Below the pieces are notes generated by a model that had not been told where the DNA came from, ran no database searches, and worked only from the letters and a program-made list of their open reading frames with translations. Both the position numbers and the translations under genes were made by a program. Below, piece by piece: positions 5,463-21,879 of a stretch of DNA of 22,163 nt. The stretch comes from a virus. The DNA lies in the IMG/VR virus record IMGVR_UViG_3300027763_003163, positions 1 through 22,163 of that record; one strand, written 5' to 3'. The number at the start of each line of letters is the position of its first letter. Within the stretch, counting starts at the first letter, position 1.

Positions 5463-6020
5463 TTAAACTTGTAGTGTTAAGAAATTATCAACGCCCATCT
5501 GTTCAATTAGCTTTAGAAATCCTTCATAAAGCTCAATACCGTCTTCGCTGCCTTGTAATAGCTCAATAAACATATTGGCTGTAATTTCATCACCAACTGC
5601 TCTGGCAGCAACTATTGTTGATCTTTCTGCTGCCGATGCTTCTCTTACAGAAGAGAGATTATATTCTATCATTGCGACCATATCATGTCTCTTCCAAGCT
5701 GGAGGATTCAGAACTAATGGTTGATAATCAACATCAAAAAATTCTAGTCTTTTGATATTGATTGCAGCATGTGTTTGTTCCTGTATCGCATCTTCTTTAA
5801 TAATTGCCGCTAGTTTCTTATATCCCCATCTTTGAAGATGTTCAGCTTGTGCTGTTAATACAGTAGTTTGCTGCCAGTGAATATTTAATGATTTTTTAAT
5901 AAGTTCAATAACAGCATCAGATGTATATCCAGTAATTTCTTGAGCAGATGTTTCGTTTGGATTATCTATTTTAATAGTTTGCGATTGTTCATTTAATAGT
6001 TCTTGTATACTTTTAGTCAT
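5463..6020 (-). CDS. Bacterioferritin-like protein with altered ferroxidase site
   Basis: This 185-residue four-helix-bundle protein aligns along its length with bacterioferritin (158 residues in E. coli) after an extra N-terminal segment of about 35 residues. Matches include VIELIKKSL..., QRWGYKKL, the second-helix AIQEQTHAAINIKRLEFF and the end FLKLIEQMGVDNFLTLQ. The ExxH pair of helix B is kept (Glu81, His84). By eye, however, the helix A ligand Glu18 is His48, helix C Glu94 is Val, and the final ExxH pair is lost (SEDG, 158-161). The haem-binding Met52 is Gln. It may thus be a shell-type or stress protein without normal iron oxidation. Spacing and context suggest co-expression with the neighbouring phage-specific genes. 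Confidence 0.7.
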   Translation of the reverse strand: MTKSIQELLNEQSQTIKIDNPNETSAQEITGYTSDAVIELIKKSLNIHWQQTTVLTAQAEHLQRWGYKKLAAIIKEDAIQEQTHAAINIKRLEFFDVDYQPLVLNPPAWKRHDMVAMIEYNLSSVREASAAERSTIVAARAVGDEITANMFIELLQGSEDGIELYEGFLKLIEQMGVDNFLTLQV

Positions 6021-6631: not shown

Positions 6632-7696
6632 TTATTTTTCTATACACCTAACCAATTGCTTGGCCGAATTTTCCCATGTAAACTTTTGAGCAGTAGTGAG
6701 ACCTTCTGGATTTGAACCAATTTTATTGGTATATACATATTTCATATAGTCAATAATTTGATCTTTTTCTTTCTCTCCGATTTTAGCCCAATTACCATCT
6801 CCATGAAACCATTTTCCATCTTCTGCCAATTCTTTATCTGTAATATCTACCAAATAAGAATTTTTACTATTACAATATTCTGTATGAGCAGAATAGTTTG
6901 TTGCAATAACTGGCTTATTCATAGCCATAGTTTCTAATAGTTCTAAATTCCACCCTTCTGCTCTAGACAAATAAAGACCACAATCAGCATAAGAAATTGC
7001 TTCTGCTACATTGCTTTGTGTTGGTAATCTTGGAAAAACTTTAATTTTATTTTTTAATTTAGATCTATTTACTACAGATAGCCACTCATGTTCTTGTTGT
7101 TCATTTAAAAAAGGGTTGTGAGTTATCATCCATAGTTCAACATTATCGTCATTAGAAAATGCTTTATTAAAACATTCTATCACAATATCATGAGACTTAC
7201 GGATTTCCCATTTTCCCACTGTGATAAAAATAAAATTCTCTGGTCTGCTTTTACTTTCTCTTGGGTAGAAAATTGAACTATCTACCCCAAGATGTACTAT
7301 CTCAATATCTTTTTTGATATCATTATCCAATAAAACTTGTTTAGCCCATTGACTGCTAGCTATTAGCTTATCTGGAAAATTTAAATGATATTTTTCTAAA
7401 GTATTGAAGGTATCTATTTCAAAAAAAGGATATGCTAAATATTGTCCTCTTCCTGGTCTAGTAAGCAGATCAAATTGATGCCATATTTTCAAACAAGTAG
7501 CATTATAATCCATATCTATATTAAGATCCATAGCATGATTAATTAATGCCGAATCTAATGGAGACTCTGCTTTAGGATTACCTATTGGAGTTAAAGAAAC
7601 TTTATGTTTTTTATCTCTAGTTAACTCTTTTAATAAATTAAAGGCTACATTGCCATAACCTGTTACTCCTATCGGAGCATGTAAATTAATATTCAT
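6632..7696 (-). CDS. GT4-type (GT-B fold) glycosyltransferase
   Basis: This 354-residue protein has the layout of family GT4. The N-terminal Rossmann domain contains the glycine loop PIGVTGYGNVAFNLLKEL. A linker (IVHLGVDSSIFYP) is the usual start of the second domain. The donor-binding domain has ITVGKWEIRKSHD, ADCGLYLSRAEGWNLELLE and KPVIATNYSAHTEY, with the EX7E motif at Glu247 and Glu255. It transfers a sugar from an activated donor to an unknown acceptor: DNA bases, a virion protein or a host surface glycan are all possible. The start overlaps the guaC stop by ATGA, so the two are coupled. No signal peptide or membrane segment is visible. Confidence 0.85.
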   Translation of the reverse strand: MNINLHAPIGVTGYGNVAFNLLKELTRDKKHKVSLTPIGNPKAESPLDSALINHAMDLNIDMDYNATCLKIWHQFDLLTRPGRGQYLAYPFFEIDTFNTLEKYHLNFPDKLIASSQWAKQVLLDNDIKKDIEIVHLGVDSSIFYPRESKSRPENFIFITVGKWEIRKSHDIVIECFNKAFSNDDNVELWMITHNPFLNEQQEHEWLSVVNRSKLKNKIKVFPRLPTQSNVAEAISYADCGLYLSRAEGWNLELLETMAMNKPVIATNYSAHTEYCNSKNSYLVDITDKELAEDGKWFHGDGNWAKIGEKEKDQIIDYMKYVYTNKIGSNPEGLTTAQKFTWENSAKQLVRCIEK

Positions 7697-8817
7697 TCAA
7701 AAATCCTATTATGGGTGTTGTTAACTTGAATAAAAGTGGTCTTTTTGCCAAAGTCTTTAATCTTAGATGCTCCTATATATGTACAAGCACTTCTTATCCC
7801 TCCAAGAATATCTTGCAAAATAATTTCTGCCTTATCTTTGTAGGGAATAGTAACACATTTTCCTTCACTGGTTCTATAGTTTGCTACTCCATTATGATAT
7901 TTATCCATAGCGTTTTTGGAACTCATCCCATAGAATTTAAGTTTGGTTTTCTTTTTTTCTGTTTCATAGCCGGGATTAAATGGTTGCCAAAATTCAGATG
8001 TTAAACCAGCTCTTTTACATAGGAATTCATATTCCCATTCTCCTTCACATTCATCAGAACCAGCAAACATACTGCCTAACATTACAAAATCAGCATTTGC
8101 ACCAAATGCTTTGCAAACATCTCCGACTATTTTGCATCCACCATCAGAACAAATATGACCACCTAATCCATGAGCAGCATCAGTACACTCCATGACTGCT
8201 GCAAGTTGAGGATAGCCTATCCCTGTTTTTAGTCTGGTGGTACAAACAGATCCGGACCCTATTCCTACTTTAACAATATCTACTTTACCATGAAGGATTA
8301 GTTCTTCAACCATCTCTGGGGTTACAACATTCCCAGCCATAACTATTACATCTGGATATAATCCACGGATATGACTGGTTGTTTTTACAAATTTTTCGCT
8401 ATAGCCGTTTGCAACATCAATACAAATATTAGGAATTTTCTTTCCAATAGAAAGTAATGAGTTAAAAACTATTGCTAGTTTTTCAATATCTTTTGCAGAT
8501 GTTCCTGTAGAATAAAAGACAAAATCTTTATCTATCTCGTTCTCAGTAGAATAGAACGTGACTAGCTCTTCTATAGAATAGTGCTTATGTAAGCAAACTA
8601 TACTTTTAGCTGAACACACTGGATTGGTCATACCAAATGTTCCAGTAGTATCCATATTTGCTACCATAATAGGAACACAAGAAAGTTTCCTTGGAGAATG
8701 AGCAAAATTAAATTCTCTAACTAAACTAACATCAGATCGACTACTTAAGGAAGATCTTTTTGGCTTTATTAAAACATCATCAAAATCTAGTTTTATTTCA
8801 TTGATTATTTTTTGCAT
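7693..8817 (-). CDS. guaC: GMP reductase
   Basis: This 374-residue protein matches bacterial GMP reductase along its whole length: DFDDVLIKPKRSSLSSRSDV, ANMDTTGTFGM, HKHYSIEE, IDVANGYSEKFV, MAGNVVTPEMVEELI and VKVGIGSGSVCTTRLKTGIG (catalytic Cys192). Also present are AAHGLGG, SDGGCKIVGDVCKAFGA, FYGMSSKNAM, GGIRSACTYIGASKIK and NRIFE. It is GuaC rather than IMP dehydrogenase because there is no CBS domain and these segments are GuaC-type. It reduces GMP with NADPH to IMP, moving guanine nucleotides to the adenine branch, which would suit an AT-rich phage genome. Residues about 254-294 are roughly 23 residues longer than in E. coli GuaC (347 residues). The start overlaps the end of the SET gene by 20 bases. 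Confidence 0.92.
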   Translation of the reverse strand: MQKIINEIKLDFDDVLIKPKRSSLSSRSDVSLVREFNFAHSPRKLSCVPIMVANMDTTGTFGMTNPVCSAKSIVCLHKHYSIEELVTFYSTENEIDKDFVFYSTGTSAKDIEKLAIVFNSLLSIGKKIPNICIDVANGYSEKFVKTTSHIRGLYPDVIVMAGNVVTPEMVEELILHGKVDIVKVGIGSGSVCTTRLKTGIGYPQLAAVMECTDAAHGLGGHICSDGGCKIVGDVCKAFGANADFVMLGSMFAGSDECEGEWEYEFLCKRAGLTSEFWQPFNPGYETEKKKTKLKFYGMSSKNAMDKYHNGVANYRTSEGKCVTIPYKDKAEIILQDILGGIRSACTYIGASKIKDFGKKTTFIQVNNTHNRIFE

Positions 8818-13338: not shown

Positions 13339-14268
13339 TTATAGTACAGGTCTAATAATACCATAGCCTTCATATTTCTTTATCCCTGTATAATTCTGCT
13401 GATGTAGTCTAATGGCTTTCTTAGCAAAAACCGCTACATAGTCGTCCGATGATTTTAGCATATTTTCAAGCATAGCAAATTTAATTTTTTTAGCAAACGA
13501 TAGAAATAAAGCAGCACATCCTACTGCAAATGGTGTTGCCATACTAGTTCCAGACATAGAAGCGTAGGCATTTCCAGGTACAGCACTAATAATATCTGCG
13601 CCCGGAGCTAAAAAGTCAAGCTCTTCACCACAGCAACTAAATGAACAGATATTTAATTTCTCATCTACTGCACCAACACTAATTGTATTATTATATTTTG
13701 CTGGGTATTGTATTCCCGACTCTATCCCACTATTCCCTGCTGCACAAAAAATTATTACATTTTTGTATTTTGCATATTCTATAGCTTTTTCTATTTGAAT
13801 AGAAGGATATTCTGAACCTAGAGACATTGTGATTAGATCTGCTCCGTGATCTGCGGCCCACACAATCGCTTCAGCGACGTTTTTATTAATTCCTGACCCA
13901 TCGGCTCCAAGTGCTTTAATAGGCATGATCTTGGCTTGCGGAGCGACTCCTACCATGCCTACGCCATTGTTCACGGCAGCTATTGTGCCAGCAACGTGGG
14001 TTCCATGACCATTATCGTCTTGTGGAGGTTGATCTGGATTTATGAAATTATAACCATCTACAATATTGTCTTTAATATCTTCGTGATTTAAATCGCATCC
14101 AGTATCTATTACTGCTACAGTTACACCTTCTCCTTGAGAATGTCTCCATTGTTGAGGAACTGAGAATTTATCAATGGGCCAGCTATGGAACTGACTAGAT
14201 CCTACCGATAAACCATAAATATCTTTTCTTGTGTGCGGTAAAAGCTTGCATTGTTTCTTTTTTAACAT
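13339..14268 (-). CDS. Subtilisin-like serine protease (S8), leaderless
   Basis: This 309-residue S8 protease has the full triad: Asp55 in VAVIDTGCD, His88 in DDNGHGTHVAGT and Ser242 in SMSGTSMATPFAVGCAAL. The oxyanion Asn179 is in FCAAGNSG. There is no signal peptide or propeptide domain; the N-terminus (LPHTRKDIYGLSVG... SVPQQW) enters directly into the catalytic domain, as in Bacillus intracellular subtilisins. So it should act in the cytoplasm or inside the virion. Substrates might be host proteins, phage proteins or virion precursors. A trypsin-like protease gene ends 2 bases upstream, so both are co-transcribed. The C-terminus after about residue 265 is basic and novel. Confidence 0.92.
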   Translation of the reverse strand: MLKKKQCKLLPHTRKDIYGLSVGSSQFHSWPIDKFSVPQQWRHSQGEGVTVAVIDTGCDLNHEDIKDNIVDGYNFINPDQPPQDDNGHGTHVAGTIAAVNNGVGMVGVAPQAKIMPIKALGADGSGINKNVAEAIVWAADHGADLITMSLGSEYPSIQIEKAIEYAKYKNVIIFCAAGNSGIESGIQYPAKYNNTISVGAVDEKLNICSFSCCGEELDFLAPGADIISAVPGNAYASMSGTSMATPFAVGCAALFLSFAKKIKFAMLENMLKSSDDYVAVFAKKAIRLHQQNYTGIKKYEGYGIIRPVL

Positions 14269-14270
14269 AA

Positions 14271-15011
14271 TTATTTCTTAATAATGTTTCTAATCCATGG
14301 AATATACATACTAATTCTTGTATGACAACTTTCATCTCCATACGTTGAGTCTGGCTTACCATCATACCCCAATACTGAAGAATTTATTCCAGCAAGTTTT
14401 CCATCTATAAAAAGACCACCACCACTATCTCCACTACAAATTAAATATTCAAGTTCTGTGATTTTTTGACTGGGTTTGGAAGCATTGCAGACTAATGTTC
14501 CTCTTTCTATTTTGGTAACATAGTTAGATCCAGCCCTTTTTTTACCATCAGAAATATTTACTCCAGTATTGAAATTTCCAGTAAGCCCAACGCCAACAAT
14601 AGCAGCTATTTTCCCAACTTCATCTGAATCCTCATATAACTCTGGATAAGGGGACATATCTACTTGTTCTGAGATGTGACCTACTGCTATATCATAATAT
14701 CCAAAAACATTGTCACTATATTTTTCATGACAAATAATAGAATCTAAATTGTATTTTTTATCATCAACAATTATTTGATGATCTTTCATATTTTTTACAA
14801 CATGAGCTGCTGTTATTATCCAATTATTATCTACTATTACAGCAGAACCCGCTGCTTGTCCATTACCATCATAGCAAACAATTTTAACAGTATGTTTAAA
14901 TTTAGATCCATATTCTATATATTTAGAGTCTTCAACATTGGGATCAATTGTCCCAGCAAAAGAATTTGAAAGAAATAAAAAAACACCCAGAAGAAAAATT
15001 AAGCTTTTCAT
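14271..15011 (-). CDS. Secreted trypsin-like serine protease (S1)
   Basis: This 246-residue protein begins with a signal peptide (MKSLIFLLGVFLFLSNSFAG, likely cut near 19/20). It then has an S1 fold: NWIITAAHVV supplies His70, NVFGYYDIAVGH supplies Asp107, and YLICSGDSGGGLF supplies Ser196 with the GDSGGG block. The Cys pairs could form disulfides in the periplasm. It is therefore exported or lysed out; phage genes for periplasmic proteases are unusual. Possible targets are outer-membrane or cell-wall proteins, or a rival phage's receptor. The ribosome site is AAAGGA. A 2-base gap to the subtilisin-like gene indicates one transcript. Confidence 0.9.
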   Translation of the reverse strand: MKSLIFLLGVFLFLSNSFAGTIDPNVEDSKYIEYGSKFKHTVKIVCYDGNGQAAGSAVIVDNNWIITAAHVVKNMKDHQIIVDDKKYNLDSIICHEKYSDNVFGYYDIAVGHISEQVDMSPYPELYEDSDEVGKIAAIVGVGLTGNFNTGVNISDGKKRAGSNYVTKIERGTLVCNASKPSQKITELEYLICSGDSGGGLFIDGKLAGINSSVLGYDGKPDSTYGDESCHTRISMYIPWIRNIIKK

Positions 15012-15038: not shown

Positions 15039-15344
15039 CTAAGGTCTATTTTTAACCTTATTTAAATACACCGAACAATCTTCGATGACCGATTTATTAT
15101 AACTCTTAAAGTTCATTAAATGACCAAATAGAAAGTGGCATGGGTCTGCACACAAAGTCACAAGATTTGAAGGATCAAGTTCTAGCTCTGGACTAATATG
15201 AACTGGGGTTTTATGATGAACTTCTAATTTTTTATCTCTACCACAAGCAATACAATATGGATTTTCTTTTAAGTGTTGTTTTCTTACATTACTCCATTTT
15301 GGAGATCGTACTGCAAACCTGATTTTATTCAGGAAATTAAACAT
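15039..15344 (-). CDS. Small HNH endonuclease
   Basis: From ATG 15344 this encodes 101 residues. The ATG overlaps the stop of the actin-like gene as TGATG and has AAAGGTG upstream, so it is preferred over a longer frame beginning at 15371. The HNH core is CIACGRDKKLEVHHKTPVHI (first Cys pair, then His-His), SPELELDPSNLVTLC and DPCHFLFGH, with the Asn in DPSNLVTLC and the final Cys-His. A basic N-terminal region (RFAVRSPKWSNVRKQHLKE) precedes it. It may cut DNA during packaging or recombination, or be a free-standing homing enzyme. The coupling to the actin-like gene suggests a resident function. Confidence 0.85.
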   Translation of the reverse strand: MFNFLNKIRFAVRSPKWSNVRKQHLKENPYCIACGRDKKLEVHHKTPVHISPELELDPSNLVTLCADPCHFLFGHLMNFKSYNKSVIEDCSVYLNKVKNRP

Positions 15345-16345
15345 CACAACACCTTTGCAGCAATTAAACATCCTTTAGCAACAGCGTGTAAGGGGTCTGT
15401 CGCATGTCTGACTTCTTTAATTTGTAAAGGAAAACCATTCTCTTCTAATTTTTTAGCAAATTCCTTAATATATCCATTAGCTTGAGAAGTACCACCAGCT
15501 ACCACAATAACCAAAGGATTTTTAAATTTTGGTAATGATTTATGGCTTGATAAAGCATGGGCTAATTGTTTTGTAGTATAGTCTATTAGTCTCTCATAAT
15601 AAGCTGACACAGCACCTAAAACTGGATTATCATTAGGTTCACCAATCGTAAAACCCCCAGCCTCTTTCTCTGCCTGAACAACACTATCTGGTTCTCCTGT
15701 AGCAACAGAACTCATGCGATCAATCCAGTCTCCACTTTTGGTTGTGCTGAATACTACAGTAGGTTCTCCATTTAACATAACGCAAACATTTGTCATACCA
15801 GCCCCACAACTAACAGCAATACCAGTATAATCCTCAACTTCTAATTCAGCATAACAAAGAGCCTCTGCTTCATTAATTGCTTTAGCACTATATCCACATT
15901 CAGCTAGAATAGTCTTGACTACATCTTCATGGTATCCAACATCAAAATCTTCATCTTCTTGATCTACTGGTTGAGCAGGGACGCAGAATACTAACTTTTC
16001 ATTTTCTTCTTTAGCTTTACCAGCTACTTCTTTCAAGATAAAAGCCAATATCTTTTTAGCATCTTTTTCTTTTGCAGATACTACGCCTTTATACATTGGT
16101 CTTTTTGCAGTATCATTTCTTTCTATAGCTTTTTCAATAGCATCTTTACCCAATAGGATAAATGATCCATCAGCATCCTTAATAAAAACCTTTCCTGCTA
16201 ATCCCTTCTCTATCATCTTTGTGGCAACTGGGGTGGTTGGTTTGATAACATAAAAAGCATCTCTAAAATCTTTATAAACAATACTATTTTTGTTTTCTTT
16301 TGATAATACTATGTAACTTGTACCAACGTCTAATCCAGCTGCCAT
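15344..16345 (-). CDS. Actin-like ATPase (ParM/MreB-type)
   Basis: This 333-residue actin/HSP70-superfamily protein has phosphate-1 (AAGLDVGTSYIVLS, 2-15), a connecting region VFCVPAQPVDQE, and the EAEALCYAELE helix (159-169). Phosphate-2 is GIAVSCGAGMTNVCVM (175-190) and the adenosine motif is VIVVAGGTSQANGY (279-292). The length fits ParM/StbA-type filament proteins (about 320-340 residues) rather than HSP70. It would polymerise with ATP to move or position DNA or the phage in the cell. Its neighbour upstream is a membrane-anchored protein (4 bases away), downstream an HNH nuclease. The ribosome site AGAGGTGA is good, and a TATAAATA motif lies 26 bases before the ATG. Confidence 0.85.
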   Translation of the reverse strand: MAAGLDVGTSYIVLSKENKNSIVYKDFRDAFYVIKPTTPVATKMIEKGLAGKVFIKDADGSFILLGKDAIEKAIERNDTAKRPMYKGVVSAKEKDAKKILAFILKEVAGKAKEENEKLVFCVPAQPVDQEDEDFDVGYHEDVVKTILAECGYSAKAINEAEALCYAELEVEDYTGIAVSCGAGMTNVCVMLNGEPTVVFSTTKSGDWIDRMSSVATGEPDSVVQAEKEAGGFTIGEPNDNPVLGAVSAYYERLIDYTTKQLAHALSSHKSLPKFKNPLVIVVAGGTSQANGYIKEFAKKLEENGFPLQIKEVRHATDPLHAVAKGCLIAAKVL

Positions 16346-16348
16346 ATT

Positions 16349-16681
16349 TCACCTCTTCATATTTTTAAGTTTATTTATAGAACTACTAATATCCTCTTCG
16401 GATTGATTAATTTCTCCCAAAGATTCATACTTCTTTTCCATTCCAGATGTCTTAATATCTACTACATATTTAGTATCATCAATAGACACAACCGTTTTAT
16501 CTTTTTCCGTTTCTTGAAAAAAACTTGTGGGTTTTGTATTAATAACAGTATTACATACACCAGCACTAGATTGCTTACCAACAAAATAGCCGATTAAAAA
16601 CAAACACACCCCTAAGATTAGGAGTGTACTTGAGAAGAAAATAATAGTGGGTAAGTTTATTGATACTGATATTTCATTCAT
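16349..16681 (-). CDS. Membrane-anchored small protein, candidate actin partner
   Basis: This 110-residue protein has one membrane helix at about residues 10-34 (PTIIFFSSTLLILGVCLFLI then GYFVGK). The tail after that is polar and charged (TEKDKTVVSIDDTKYVVDIK, EEDISSSINKLKNMKR). It has no signal peptidase site, so the tail likely faces the cytoplasm. It is 3 bases upstream of the actin-like gene and overlaps RuvB by 8 bases. A membrane protein next to an actin-like ATPase recalls adaptor proteins that link filaments to membrane, but no homology is seen and the pairing is inference. Confidence 0.65.
   Translation of the reverse strand: MNEISVSINLPTIIFFSSTLLILGVCLFLIGYFVGKQSSAGVCNTVINTKPTSFFQETEKDKTVVSIDDTKYVVDIKTSGMEKKYESLGEINQSEEDISSSINKLKNMKR
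16372..16379 (-). promoter_or_regulatory. Putative late-promoter motif TATAAATA
   Basis: The minus strand reads TATAAATA, the T4 gp55 late-promoter consensus, 26 bases before the ATG of the actin-like gene. It lies inside the 3' end of the upstream membrane-protein gene. The distance to the ATG is nearly the same as for the TATAATTA copies at 781 and 1780. A single copy of this octamer is expected by chance in AT-rich DNA, so this is only suggestive. Confidence 0.3.
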
Positions 16682-17591
16682 GTTTATATGAGCCTATCAC
16701 TCTTCCCTTTTGGGTTCTTACAGCAAAACCTTTTCGTACTAGATATGGTTCGATGCTATTCTCAATAGTGTCCATAGCAATTCCAGTTAAAGCTGAAATA
16801 CTCTTTAGGCCCAATCCAGCACCTTTAGAATTAGCAAGCACTTTCAAATACATCTTATCATACACATCCAAACCGTCCTTATCAATACCCTGACTATTAA
16901 AGATTTCATCCACACTCATCTTCTTCTCTGTATAATATGCACTACAGTTTTTATACCATTGTAGTCTACCATTCAAAATTCTAGGAGTTCCCTTGCTTCT
17001 TTTAGCAATTTCTAGCAAATCTTCATCGCTAATATGCAAACCTAGCTTGTTAGCGTTCAATCCTGCTAGTTTAGCTAGATCAATCTCAGTATAGAAGGAC
17101 AAATGTTCTTTTATTTGAAATCTATCATAAAATGGTTGACTTAAAGTGCCTCCACTAGTTGTTGCTCCAACCAAAGTAAATACTGGCAACTCAATAGTTT
17201 CCGGCTTTTCTTTATCTTGTTCATCTTTTACAGTAATATTGAGAACAAAATCCTCCATTACTGGATATAAAAATTCTTCTACAATTTTGGGTAAACGATG
17301 AATTTCATCAATGAATAGAACAGAATGTTTTTCCATACCCATAATATAGGGCAAAATATTTTTGATACCACGAACAGTGGCAGCATTGATGGTATATAGG
17401 TTGACTCCCATCTCAGTAGCTATAGCACTGGCTATTGTAGTCTTTCCTAGCCCCGGTGGGCCGTCTATTAAAAGATGAGGCATCACACCACCAGAATTTT
17501 TACAACCAGCAACCACGATGTTTAACCGTGTAATCACTTCTGACTGTCCAATAATTTCACTAAATCGCGTGGGACGAATTGCATTAGCCAT
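16674..17591 (-). CDS. ruvB: RuvB-like Holliday junction AAA+ helicase
   Basis: From ATG 17591, with TTTGGAG upstream, this encodes 305 residues. A TTG at 17603 is a poorer choice. It follows RuvB closely: RPTRFSEIIGQ at the start, Walker A LLIDGPPGLGKTT (about 41-53), Walker B SVLFIDEIHRLPK, the beta-hairpin region ending ELPVFTLVGATTSGGTLSQP and PFYDRF. The first Arg of the family's LRDRF is Tyr here. Sensor 2 is SKGTPRILNGR, and the winged helix has GLKSISALTGIAMDTIENSI then EPYLVRKGFAVRTQKGR. RuvB hexamers pump DNA at Holliday junctions together with RuvA. No separate ruvA is seen, but the upstream gene has a RuvA-III-like tail. RuvB is rare in phages. Confidence 0.92.
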   Translation of the reverse strand: MANAIRPTRFSEIIGQSEVITRLNIVVAGCKNSGGVMPHLLIDGPPGLGKTTIASAIATEMGVNLYTINAATVRGIKNILPYIMGMEKHSVLFIDEIHRLPKIVEEFLYPVMEDFVLNITVKDEQDKEKPETIELPVFTLVGATTSGGTLSQPFYDRFQIKEHLSFYTEIDLAKLAGLNANKLGLHISDEDLLEIAKRSKGTPRILNGRLQWYKNCSAYYTEKKMSVDEIFNSQGIDKDGLDVYDKMYLKVLANSKGAGLGLKSISALTGIAMDTIENSIEPYLVRKGFAVRTQKGRVIGSYKHE

Positions 17592-17997
17592 TTTTTTCTC
17601 CAAAGTTTTTTAAAGCCTGTTTGATTAAATCAACGCAAATATAAGTAGGTGTTCTGTCAAAGGTTGAGACTATTAGTTTCTCAGCTTCACTAATATCAAA
17701 ACCATATCCAAGTAAAATTGTACAAGATTGTGTTAAAAGATCTAAAGGAATAGTTTCTTTCTTTTCCTCTGTTTCTGCTGCTAAAGATGACTTCTTTTGA
17801 GTCTGACTATAGATAATCTCATTTTTTTCTACTAGTTTTACCCTAAGTATCTCATTGCAGTCGCAGACTATTCTATATCCTTTTGTCTGTGCCTCTTTCA
17901 TGGAAATCCAATGGTCTGAAGAACATTTAGGACATCTATATTTTAGATGAACATCTTGATCAATCGGTCTCAGGCGTTTCTGTTTGATTGTTGGCAT
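17584..17997 (-). CDS. Zinc-ribbon protein with RuvA domain III-like C-terminus
   Basis: This encodes 137 residues. The N-terminus (22-47) is a zinc ribbon, RCPKCSSDHWISMKEAQ ... VCDC, with Cys22, 25, 45 and 47. The middle is Lys/Glu-rich and probably flexible (about 60-85). The C-terminus (about 86-132: DLLTQSCTILLGYGFDISEA then EKLIVSTF, CVDLIKQALKNFG) has the length, the LGY turn and helix pattern of RuvA domain III, the small UBA-like domain that binds RuvB. Its end overlaps the start of ruvB by 8 bases, so the two proteins are made together. I infer a RuvA replacement or a RuvB adaptor, with the ribbon taking the DNA- or protein-binding part. Confidence 0.65.
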   Translation of the reverse strand: MPTIKQKRLRPIDQDVHLKYRCPKCSSDHWISMKEAQTKGYRIVCDCNEILRVKLVEKNEIIYSQTQKKSSLAAETEEKKETIPLDLLTQSCTILLGYGFDISEAEKLIVSTFDRTPTYICVDLIKQALKNFGEKNG

Positions 17998-18394
17998 CTT
18001 CTTTTACCCAAAAAATGAAATCGTTTTTTTCACTGTCGTATCCACTATCCAAAACCCCCTTGTTAACCAAGGTATTCAAAATATTGCTGACCATTCTTCC
18101 GTTCAAATCTTCTATAATCTCTCCTAAAATTTTATCAGTAAGTGAGTATCGAATTTCTTTACTTTTTTTATTGATTTGTTTTCTAGCATGATTCTTAATG
18201 ATAACAGATGCTTCTTCATGACTCAGAGTAGTATCCATTTCTTCTATTTCTTTTTTACTCATTGTTGATAAAGAAGCAGTTAAAGAATCTGCGGCTATCT
18301 CATTAACTTGTCCAAATAAATTAAAAACCAAAGCTCTTGAGTGGTCAACAAATTCTTCAAAGTTGCTTATAAAAAACCATTTTTCGTTCTTCAT
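17960..18394 (-). CDS. Hypothetical protein with winged-helix-like C-terminus
   Basis: Starting at the ATG at 18394 (overlapping the upstream stop as TAATG) this is 144 residues; a longer frame to 18436 has no better start. The N-terminus (NEKWFFISNFEEFVDHSRAL, VNEIAADSLTASLSTM) is helical. The segment HARKQINKKSKEIRYS is basic. The C-terminal part (LTDKILGEIIEDLNGRMVSN then ILNTLVNKGVLDSGYDSEKN, DFIFWV) has the helix-helix-turn-helix and beta-wing order of a winged-helix domain. The end overlaps the zinc-ribbon gene by 38 bases. It may take part in DNA or regulatory complexes with its neighbours. No family is recognised. Confidence 0.6.
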   Translation of the reverse strand: MKNEKWFFISNFEEFVDHSRALVFNLFGQVNEIAADSLTASLSTMSKKEIEEMDTTLSHEEASVIIKNHARKQINKKSKEIRYSLTDKILGEIIEDLNGRMVSNILNTLVNKGVLDSGYDSEKNDFIFWVKEDANNQTETPETD

Positions 18395-20991: not shown

Positions 20992-21879
20992 TCAATGGTT
21001 TCCGTAGAGCCCATTATCTAAATCAGAATCATCTTCGTCACCAACGAGATCATCGTCCTCATCTTCATCGTCAAACTGATCCCAATAGTTCTCATCATAA
21101 TCATTCAGATAATCATCCTCATCATCTTCGTAATCATCTTCACTGAAATTGGCCTTGTAAAGAGGCTTGAGCAATTCGCCCTCATACTGTCCAACTACCT
21201 CATAACGACAAGTGCGAAGCTTTTCACAATTAGAATCGCTTGGAACACTGACTACATCCTTGGGATTGATCTTAACGATCACAATACGGTCTCCAGCTTC
21301 CAGACTACCATAGTTAGCAACATAATTCAATGCTCCAGCATGAAGTCCATTAGAACAACCACGACCACGATCATCGTCAACCTTTGCTCTTTGCATTTCG
21401 CAAACCTGACCAACGCGGTTGTCAAAAACTCCTCTATACTTATCCTTAAAGTCTGAACGAACAGCCTTATAAGCGAGAAAGAAACCATCCTCAGTAATAG
21501 GAAGATGCTCATGCTCCAAGAAATCATACAGTTCCTTCTGACTCTGCATACTTGGATTTTCCATGATATTATTCAGGAAATTGACAAGGGGCTGAAAAGG
21601 TAATCCCTTGCTCATAAACTCCAAAATACGCTTACTAATACTACCATGAACTTCCTCGCCCTCATAAAGAACCTGTCCATTCTTGATCTCTACAAGACCA
21701 TCGCTAAAAGTAGCAACAGCTTTTTGAACATCAACAACTTCCAGTAGTTCATCTGCCGTAGCAGAGGGAAGTTTTTCCAGAATCAACTTATAGTTGATAT
21801 GATCTGGCAACACCTGATAACTCTGATTATTAAGAACCAGCGTCAAATTACCATCCACAAACATAAACGGAACAGCCAT
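20992..21879 (-). CDS. rIIB: rIIB-like protein
   Basis: This 295-residue protein has the conserved core found in phage rIIB-like proteins: PITEDGFFLAYKAVRSDFKD, RGVFDNRVGQVCEMQRAKVD, RGCSNGLHAGALNYVANYGS, DRIVIVKINPKDVVSVPSDS and NCEKLRTCRYEVVGQY. T4 rIIB acts with rIIA at the membrane in lysis inhibition and protects against some exclusion systems. The last 50 residues are an Asp/Glu-rich tail (EDDYEDDEDDYLNDYDENY...), unlike T4. The N-terminus is MAVPFMFVDGNLTLVLNNQS. It is the first gene after a strong sigma-70 promoter and is thus expected to be early and well expressed. No rIIA is recognisable in the partial gene upstream. Confidence 0.8.
   Translation of the reverse strand: MAVPFMFVDGNLTLVLNNQSYQVLPDHINYKLILEKLPSATADELLEVVDVQKAVATFSDGLVEIKNGQVLYEGEEVHGSISKRILEFMSKGLPFQPLVNFLNNIMENPSMQSQKELYDFLEHEHLPITEDGFFLAYKAVRSDFKDKYRGVFDNRVGQVCEMQRAKVDDDRGRGCSNGLHAGALNYVANYGSLEAGDRIVIVKINPKDVVSVPSDSNCEKLRTCRYEVVGQYEGELLKPLYKANFSEDDYEDDEDDYLNDYDENYWDQFDDEDEDDDLVGDEDDSDLDNGLYGNH

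Follow-up and report, generated by a model that had tools for sequence, protein, structure and literature searches.

The window analysed here is a viral record of 22,163 bases, itself a fragment (IMG/VR record IMGVR_UViG_3300027763_003163), which encodes on its minus strand the motor protein RuvB and, in the gene directly upstream, a small protein that we call the ZnR-D3 adaptor. This adaptor joins a four-Cys zinc ribbon through a linker to a three-helix domain that is homologous to domain III (D3) of RuvA. We consider it probable that the two genes together form a RuvA-less RuvB system, in which D3 binds the motor and the basic ribbon replaces RuvA domains I-II and targets RuvB to forks or recombining DNA, or to a protein there. 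The pair belongs to a family of large, uncultivated phages, and we found no report of such a RuvB-adaptor pair in the open-licence literature.

The phage RuvB and its adaptor

The product of positions 16674 to 17591 (minus strand; 305 amino acids (aa) from its ATG, with a possible TTG start 12 bases upstream) is certainly RuvB. Its Pfam matches are all above cut-off (RuvB_N, E 1.8e-46; RuvB_C, 1.3e-16; AAA_lid_4, 2.6e-7), its best PDB chain is a RuvB (E 2.1e-66, residues 3-299), and the RuvB-type AAA+ core, lid and C-terminal winged helix are all present. Walker A reads GPPGLGKT in the translation (17439 to 17462, minus strand); its GPPGLGK, the DE of Walker B and the arginine finger R174 are invariant among 85 relatives, nearly all of which also retain the basic residues of the C-terminal hairpin, R313 as R or K and R316 as K. 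An earlier sequence-only reading of this DNA had recognised RuvB with all its main motifs, and the identification stands.

The adaptor gene, an open reading frame of 137 aa (17584 to 17997, minus strand), shares exactly 8 bases with the start of RuvB (17584 to 17591, minus strand), as the same reading had counted, and overlaps of 8, 14 and 17 bases are the commonest among relatives. The 8-base overlap suggests translational coupling. Since the window adaptor alone gave no match in Pfam and no useful one in the PDB, a family alignment of 35 sequences (A1) was built, the distinct relatives amounting to 104 in total; A1 was too diverse for the collection scan, for which a closer subset (A2) was used. 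The window adaptor did match phrog_403, a DNA polymerase exonuclease subunit, at E 0.0012, but a single member of the 35 did so, and this was discarded as a chance hit.

The AlphaFold2 model made from the 35-sequence alignment (mean predicted local distance difference test score, pLDDT, of 86.5) has strands within residues 17-52 and helices at 85-97, 102-115 and 121-136. Model and alignment together bear out the layout proposed from the letters alone, a four-Cys ribbon, a linker and then a helical domain, the last of which had been placed at residues 86-137. The linker, at about residues 63-84 (17746 to 17811, minus strand), is variable in the alignment and measures 10-60 aa in relatives, and residues 71-80 have a pLDDT of about 52. 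All 104 distinct adaptors keep the four Cys, the Trp and the Val of the ribbon as well as the Gly of the helical domain, and 103 keep its Glu. The ratio of nonsynonymous to synonymous substitution rates (dN/dS) is 0.13-0.36 in seven adaptor pairs, and because of this ratio and of the residue conservation the adaptor is a real gene under selection. In six RuvB pairs the ratio is 0.03-0.10; judged by dN/dS, both proteins are functional, with the adaptor evolving faster.

The helical domain (residues 85-136, with L95, Y98, G99, F100 and E104; 17590 to 17745, minus strand) is homologous to domain III of RuvA, which goes beyond the by-eye likeness that had been reported for it. Four tests support the match. 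RuvA_C is the Pfam family matched by most adaptor members (7 of the 35, best E 3.3e-4), so that the similarity is seen at the family level. With the profile of the whole adaptor family, the RuvA of PDB 1ixs came out on top among 177,635 sequences (E 4.5e-4), and the profile of the helical domain alone had the RuvA of 1ixr as its best PDB match (E 4.1e-4). The first eight Foldseek matches in the PDB, ahead of any UBA domain, are all RuvA through domain III; they are led by 1ixs_A of a RuvA-RuvB complex, whose three-helix fold the model shares (probability 1.00, 1.8 Å, TM 0.77 by target length, with an E of only 0.18, the domain being short). Finally, a D3 profile of 32 rows was assembled from the Escherichia coli RuvA, the T. 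thermophilus domain and the RuvAs of 30 genomes that belong to the same phylum as a Chitinophagia metagenome-assembled genome (MAG) considered below; hhalign against it gave a score of 42.4 (96.4%), against at most 15.9 for 200 column shuffles and 12.4 for the reversed profile. It is because of these profile, Pfam and Foldseek matches and of the shuffle control that we regard the resemblance as homology.

With either L167A or L170A in E. coli RuvA, RuvB activity is lost in vivo, and junction binding is unaffected (PMC2628435). By alignment, with numbering verified on the MG1655 sequence, the adaptor counterpart of L167 is L or M and that of L170 is Y, L or F throughout the 104 sequences, beside the invariant Gly, and the Glu kept in 103 is the counterpart of E. 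coli RuvA E176. On the side of the motor, it is the presensor-1 beta-hairpin of RuvB that binds RuvA D3 (PMC9477746), corresponding to L135-L152 in E. coli (PMC2628435, PMC9477746) and, by alignment to E. coli RuvB, to residues 117-135 of the phage protein (17187 to 17243, minus strand). E. coli positions 135, 137 and 150 are hydrophobic in all RuvBs with an adaptor, and the counterpart of I150 is I or V in all aligned relatives. That of I137 is hydrophobic in 66/66 RuvBs with an adaptor and in 16/19 without one, small numbers of related sequences; the T or Q found there in 3/19 and 0/66, respectively, is only suggestive of a hairpin that relaxes once the adaptor is lost. Given the D3 homology, the retention of the activating residues, the gene overlap and the constant linkage described below, the adaptor is likely to bind the phage RuvB and to activate it.

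The head is a zinc ribbon (residues 17-52, C22-x2-C25, W30, C45-x-C47; 17842 to 17949, minus strand) with two Cys pairs on beta knuckles, recognised from the Cys and Trp residues invariant in the 104 sequences and from the strands of the model; C-x4-C and C-x2-C forms of the pairs occur among relatives. Residues 1-62 are basic in every A1 member (net charge +2 to +13, mean isoelectric point 9.3), and the head is predicted to bind zinc and nucleic acid. Neither a profile search with the ribbon alone nor Foldseek gave a clear match to a known zinc-ribbon family, the weak relatives including RNA polymerase and ribosomal proteins, and a BFVD fold search with the adaptor returned short matches and no clear two-domain one. 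The junction-binding domains of RuvA, the OB fold (RuvA_N) and the helix-hairpin-helix (HhH) domain, were looked for in the adaptor and not found, and for this reason the protein, which would be partly RuvA-like in action, yet lies outside the RuvA family as a whole. The idea that a different head had replaced these domains is supported, with a ribbon in their place and no RuvA_N in the related contigs described next.

Distribution and recombination setting

The RuvB scan gave 80 viral loci, many of them on contigs of 100-240 kilobases, to which a scan with P0001 added close copies. In the first set, the two-part adaptor lies directly upstream of RuvB in 61 of 84 loci; the 23 others include, in reverse orientation, the window itself. 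The scan with the adaptor alone also gave 80 loci, in which RuvB follows directly downstream wherever the contig continues (at loci L163 and L164 it ends at the adaptor). After a further RuvB scan, an adaptor, always with both parts, was present at 221 of 244 RuvB loci; these loci partly overlap, and the counts of distinct sequences are more reliable, with 102 of the 122 distinct RuvBs fetched paired with an adaptor and 20 unpaired. The two-gene order that the sequence-only reading had asked to be sought in other phages recurs in these sets, in which no adaptor was found apart from RuvB. A tblastn search of 50,697 named phage records yielded no adaptor relatives. One Chitinophagia MAG contig carries the adaptor, a weak hint that the hosts of the adaptor-bearing phages are Bacteroidota.

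Neither RuvA_N nor RuvC was detected in any of 21 related phage contigs (0/21 each). RuvA_C was likewise absent (0/21), a result that excludes only an ordinary RuvA_C, since the model misses the adaptor itself. No sign of a full RuvA was therefore seen on these contigs, which may be fragments. RecA is encoded in 16 of 16 related contigs tested and Endonuclease_7, an endonuclease VII-like protein, in 13 of the same number.

The RuvB tree calls for about 12 changes between presence and absence of the adaptor, and the branches concerned are well supported for at least 5 of these. As RuvBs with an adaptor occur all over the tree, repeated loss is a simpler reading than gain. The phages that lack it may use RuvB alone, the host RuvA or an unrecognised partner.

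Proposed role of the pair

We favour a RuvB system without RuvA, in which the D3-homologous C-terminal domain would bind the phage RuvB and the basic zinc-ribbon head, on its flexible linker, would stand in for RuvA domains I-II. The head would take RuvB to where it acts, within the RecA and endonuclease VII type recombination of large phages; this site is most likely DNA at a fork or undergoing recombination, or else a protein bound to such DNA. A DNA branch or a protein of the recombination or fork site is preferred as the target because of the charge of the head and of the RecA and endonuclease VII setting; we infer this target, the binding of RuvB by D3 and branch migration as the output. 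The bacterial partner RuvA combines junction finding and activation of the RuvB motor in one protein. The phage adaptor would separate the two roles, keeping the motor-binding domain and replacing the targeting part, and this natural split opens a direct way to learn if domain III is enough by itself to set the ATP cycle of RuvB, and if RuvB can be steered elsewhere.

Several observations weigh against this proposal. About 20 distinct RuvBs are without an adaptor, and on six long contigs that lack one beside RuvB we found neither an adaptor elsewhere nor a D3 at E up to 10; RuvB can therefore act without the adaptor or with the host RuvA, and the adaptor, given its repeated absence, is not always needed. 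The hairpin of the phage RuvB resembles its E. coli counterpart only in part, with a gap or a polar residue at the position of I148. In addition, the absence of RuvA and RuvC is not final because the contigs may be incomplete.

Two other accounts would retain the motor and move it away from Holliday junctions. RuvB could be a general duplex-DNA pump with an exchangeable head; of RuvA, the phages would have retained just the motor-binding domain, fused to a ribbon that steers RuvB to some DNA structure or machine besides the Holliday junction, for instance a replication fork, the transcription apparatus or a packaging site, a possibility that we entertain only tentatively. In the second account, which we find rather unlikely, the ribbon binds a phage protein (of the replisome, an RNA polymerase factor or a packaging enzyme) for which RuvB translocates duplex DNA. 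The absence of the RuvA junction-binding domains and of a detectable RuvC speaks for this second account, as do the RNA polymerase and ribosomal proteins among the weak relatives of the ribbon and the resemblance of the upstream neighbour to a winged-helix protein; the same phages, however, have RecA and mostly endonuclease VII-like proteins, a natural setting for branch migration, and the strongly basic ribbon part fits nucleic acid.

The constant adjacency of the two genes bears on two further explanations. In the first, the adaptor would not load the phage RuvB but act in infection on the RuvAB of the host, blocking or capturing it as a decoy or modulator; D3 by itself is the RuvB-binding part of RuvA, and the Bacteroidota MAG that includes one adaptor-bearing phage-like contig does have a RuvA of its own. 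Such a decoy would have no need of an invariant zinc ribbon, and no adaptor was found apart from a phage RuvB, whose gene it overlaps, so that we hold this to be very improbable. It is equally hard to credit that the helical domain does not bind RuvB and has a generic UBA-like fold, its resemblance to D3 being convergent. UBA and D3 do have a three-helix fold and a G-[FY] loop in common, one UBA-type chain was matched by the domain profile at E 0.077 and a UBA domain by Foldseek at a probability of 0.23, but all the searches put RuvA first, the shuffled profiles scored well below the real one, and the adaptor gene always adjoins RuvB. Loading of the phage RuvB by a D3 domain carrying a new head remains, to us, the probable function.

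Neighbouring genes and comparison with known systems

The minus-strand gene order in the window is a 144-158 aa gene, the adaptor, RuvB, a 110-aa protein and a volactin-like actin. The upstream gene (17960 to 18394, minus strand; 144 aa, or 158 aa from an earlier ATG), supported by synteny and alignment A5, stands before the adaptor or, where the adaptor is absent, directly before RuvB. Its product is likely a winged helix, with weak helix-turn-helix (HTH) and winged-helix (WHD) Pfam matches and weak MarR-like Foldseek matches. Its conserved C-terminal PETD shares DNA, in another frame, with the conserved [RK]-P-I-D of the adaptor (17960 to 17997, minus strand), and the terminal TD occurs in 57/66 loci with an adaptor versus 6/19 without; in the adaptor-less loci this ending may be the footprint of a lost adaptor.

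The next gene after RuvB (16349 to 16681, minus strand), placed by synteny, encodes the 110-aa protein, with a hydrophobic N-terminal segment read from the sequence. It separates RuvB, here and in most related loci, from the volactin-like actin (15344 to 16345, minus strand; Pfam Volactin, E 1.7e-62), two genes after RuvB; the literature found naming both volactin and phage concerns Haloferax. A subtilase and a trypsin-like protease are adjacent (13339 to 14268 and 14271 to 15011, minus strand) and lie near RuvB in many relatives. Among the best conserved neighbours is a RIIB-like protein (20992 to 21879, minus strand; PHROG E 6.7e-71), of a family whose name suggests a lysis inhibitor. Also on the minus strand are two tandem SET-domain proteins, unusual for a phage (8798 to 9232 and 9234 to 9698), an IMP dehydrogenase/GMP reductase homologue (7693 to 8817, E 6.7e-59) and a ferritin-like protein (5463 to 6020).

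Bacterial RuvAB (RuvA_N, RuvA_C, RuvB_N, RuvB_C; PDB 1ixs, 1ixr, 7pbl) is like the phage pair in its RuvB motor with catalytic and DNA-contact motifs, and in a partner, in the phage encoded by the gene adjoining RuvB, that ends in a flexibly linked D3 with the RuvB-activating residues kept. It differs in that the phage partner has a basic zinc ribbon instead of the junction-binding OB fold and HhH domains, and in that RuvA_N and RuvC went unmatched in the 21 related phage contigs. With the AgmX-type and RPB12-type zinc ribbons (PDB 7zok and others) the phage head has in common a short beta ribbon with two Cys pairs, at a marginal profile similarity (E 0.07 or worse). Recombination in phage T4 proceeds through UvsX, endonuclease VII and UvsW, and it is UvsW, not RuvB, that serves branch migration. 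T4 and the phages studied here have in common a RecA-like protein and an endonuclease VII-like resolvase, and the latter phages have RuvB. The jumbo phages surveyed by Iyer et al. in 2021, in which RuvC is not coupled with RuvB (PMC7824862), are likewise large and encode a RecA-like protein and a Holliday-junction resolvase of their own, the resolvase of our phages being endonuclease VII-like; in the latter, by contrast, RuvB is present, RuvC is undetected and an adaptor is added. The adaptor and RuvB are a candidate for branch migration in large phages, where that survey saw RuvC without RuvB.
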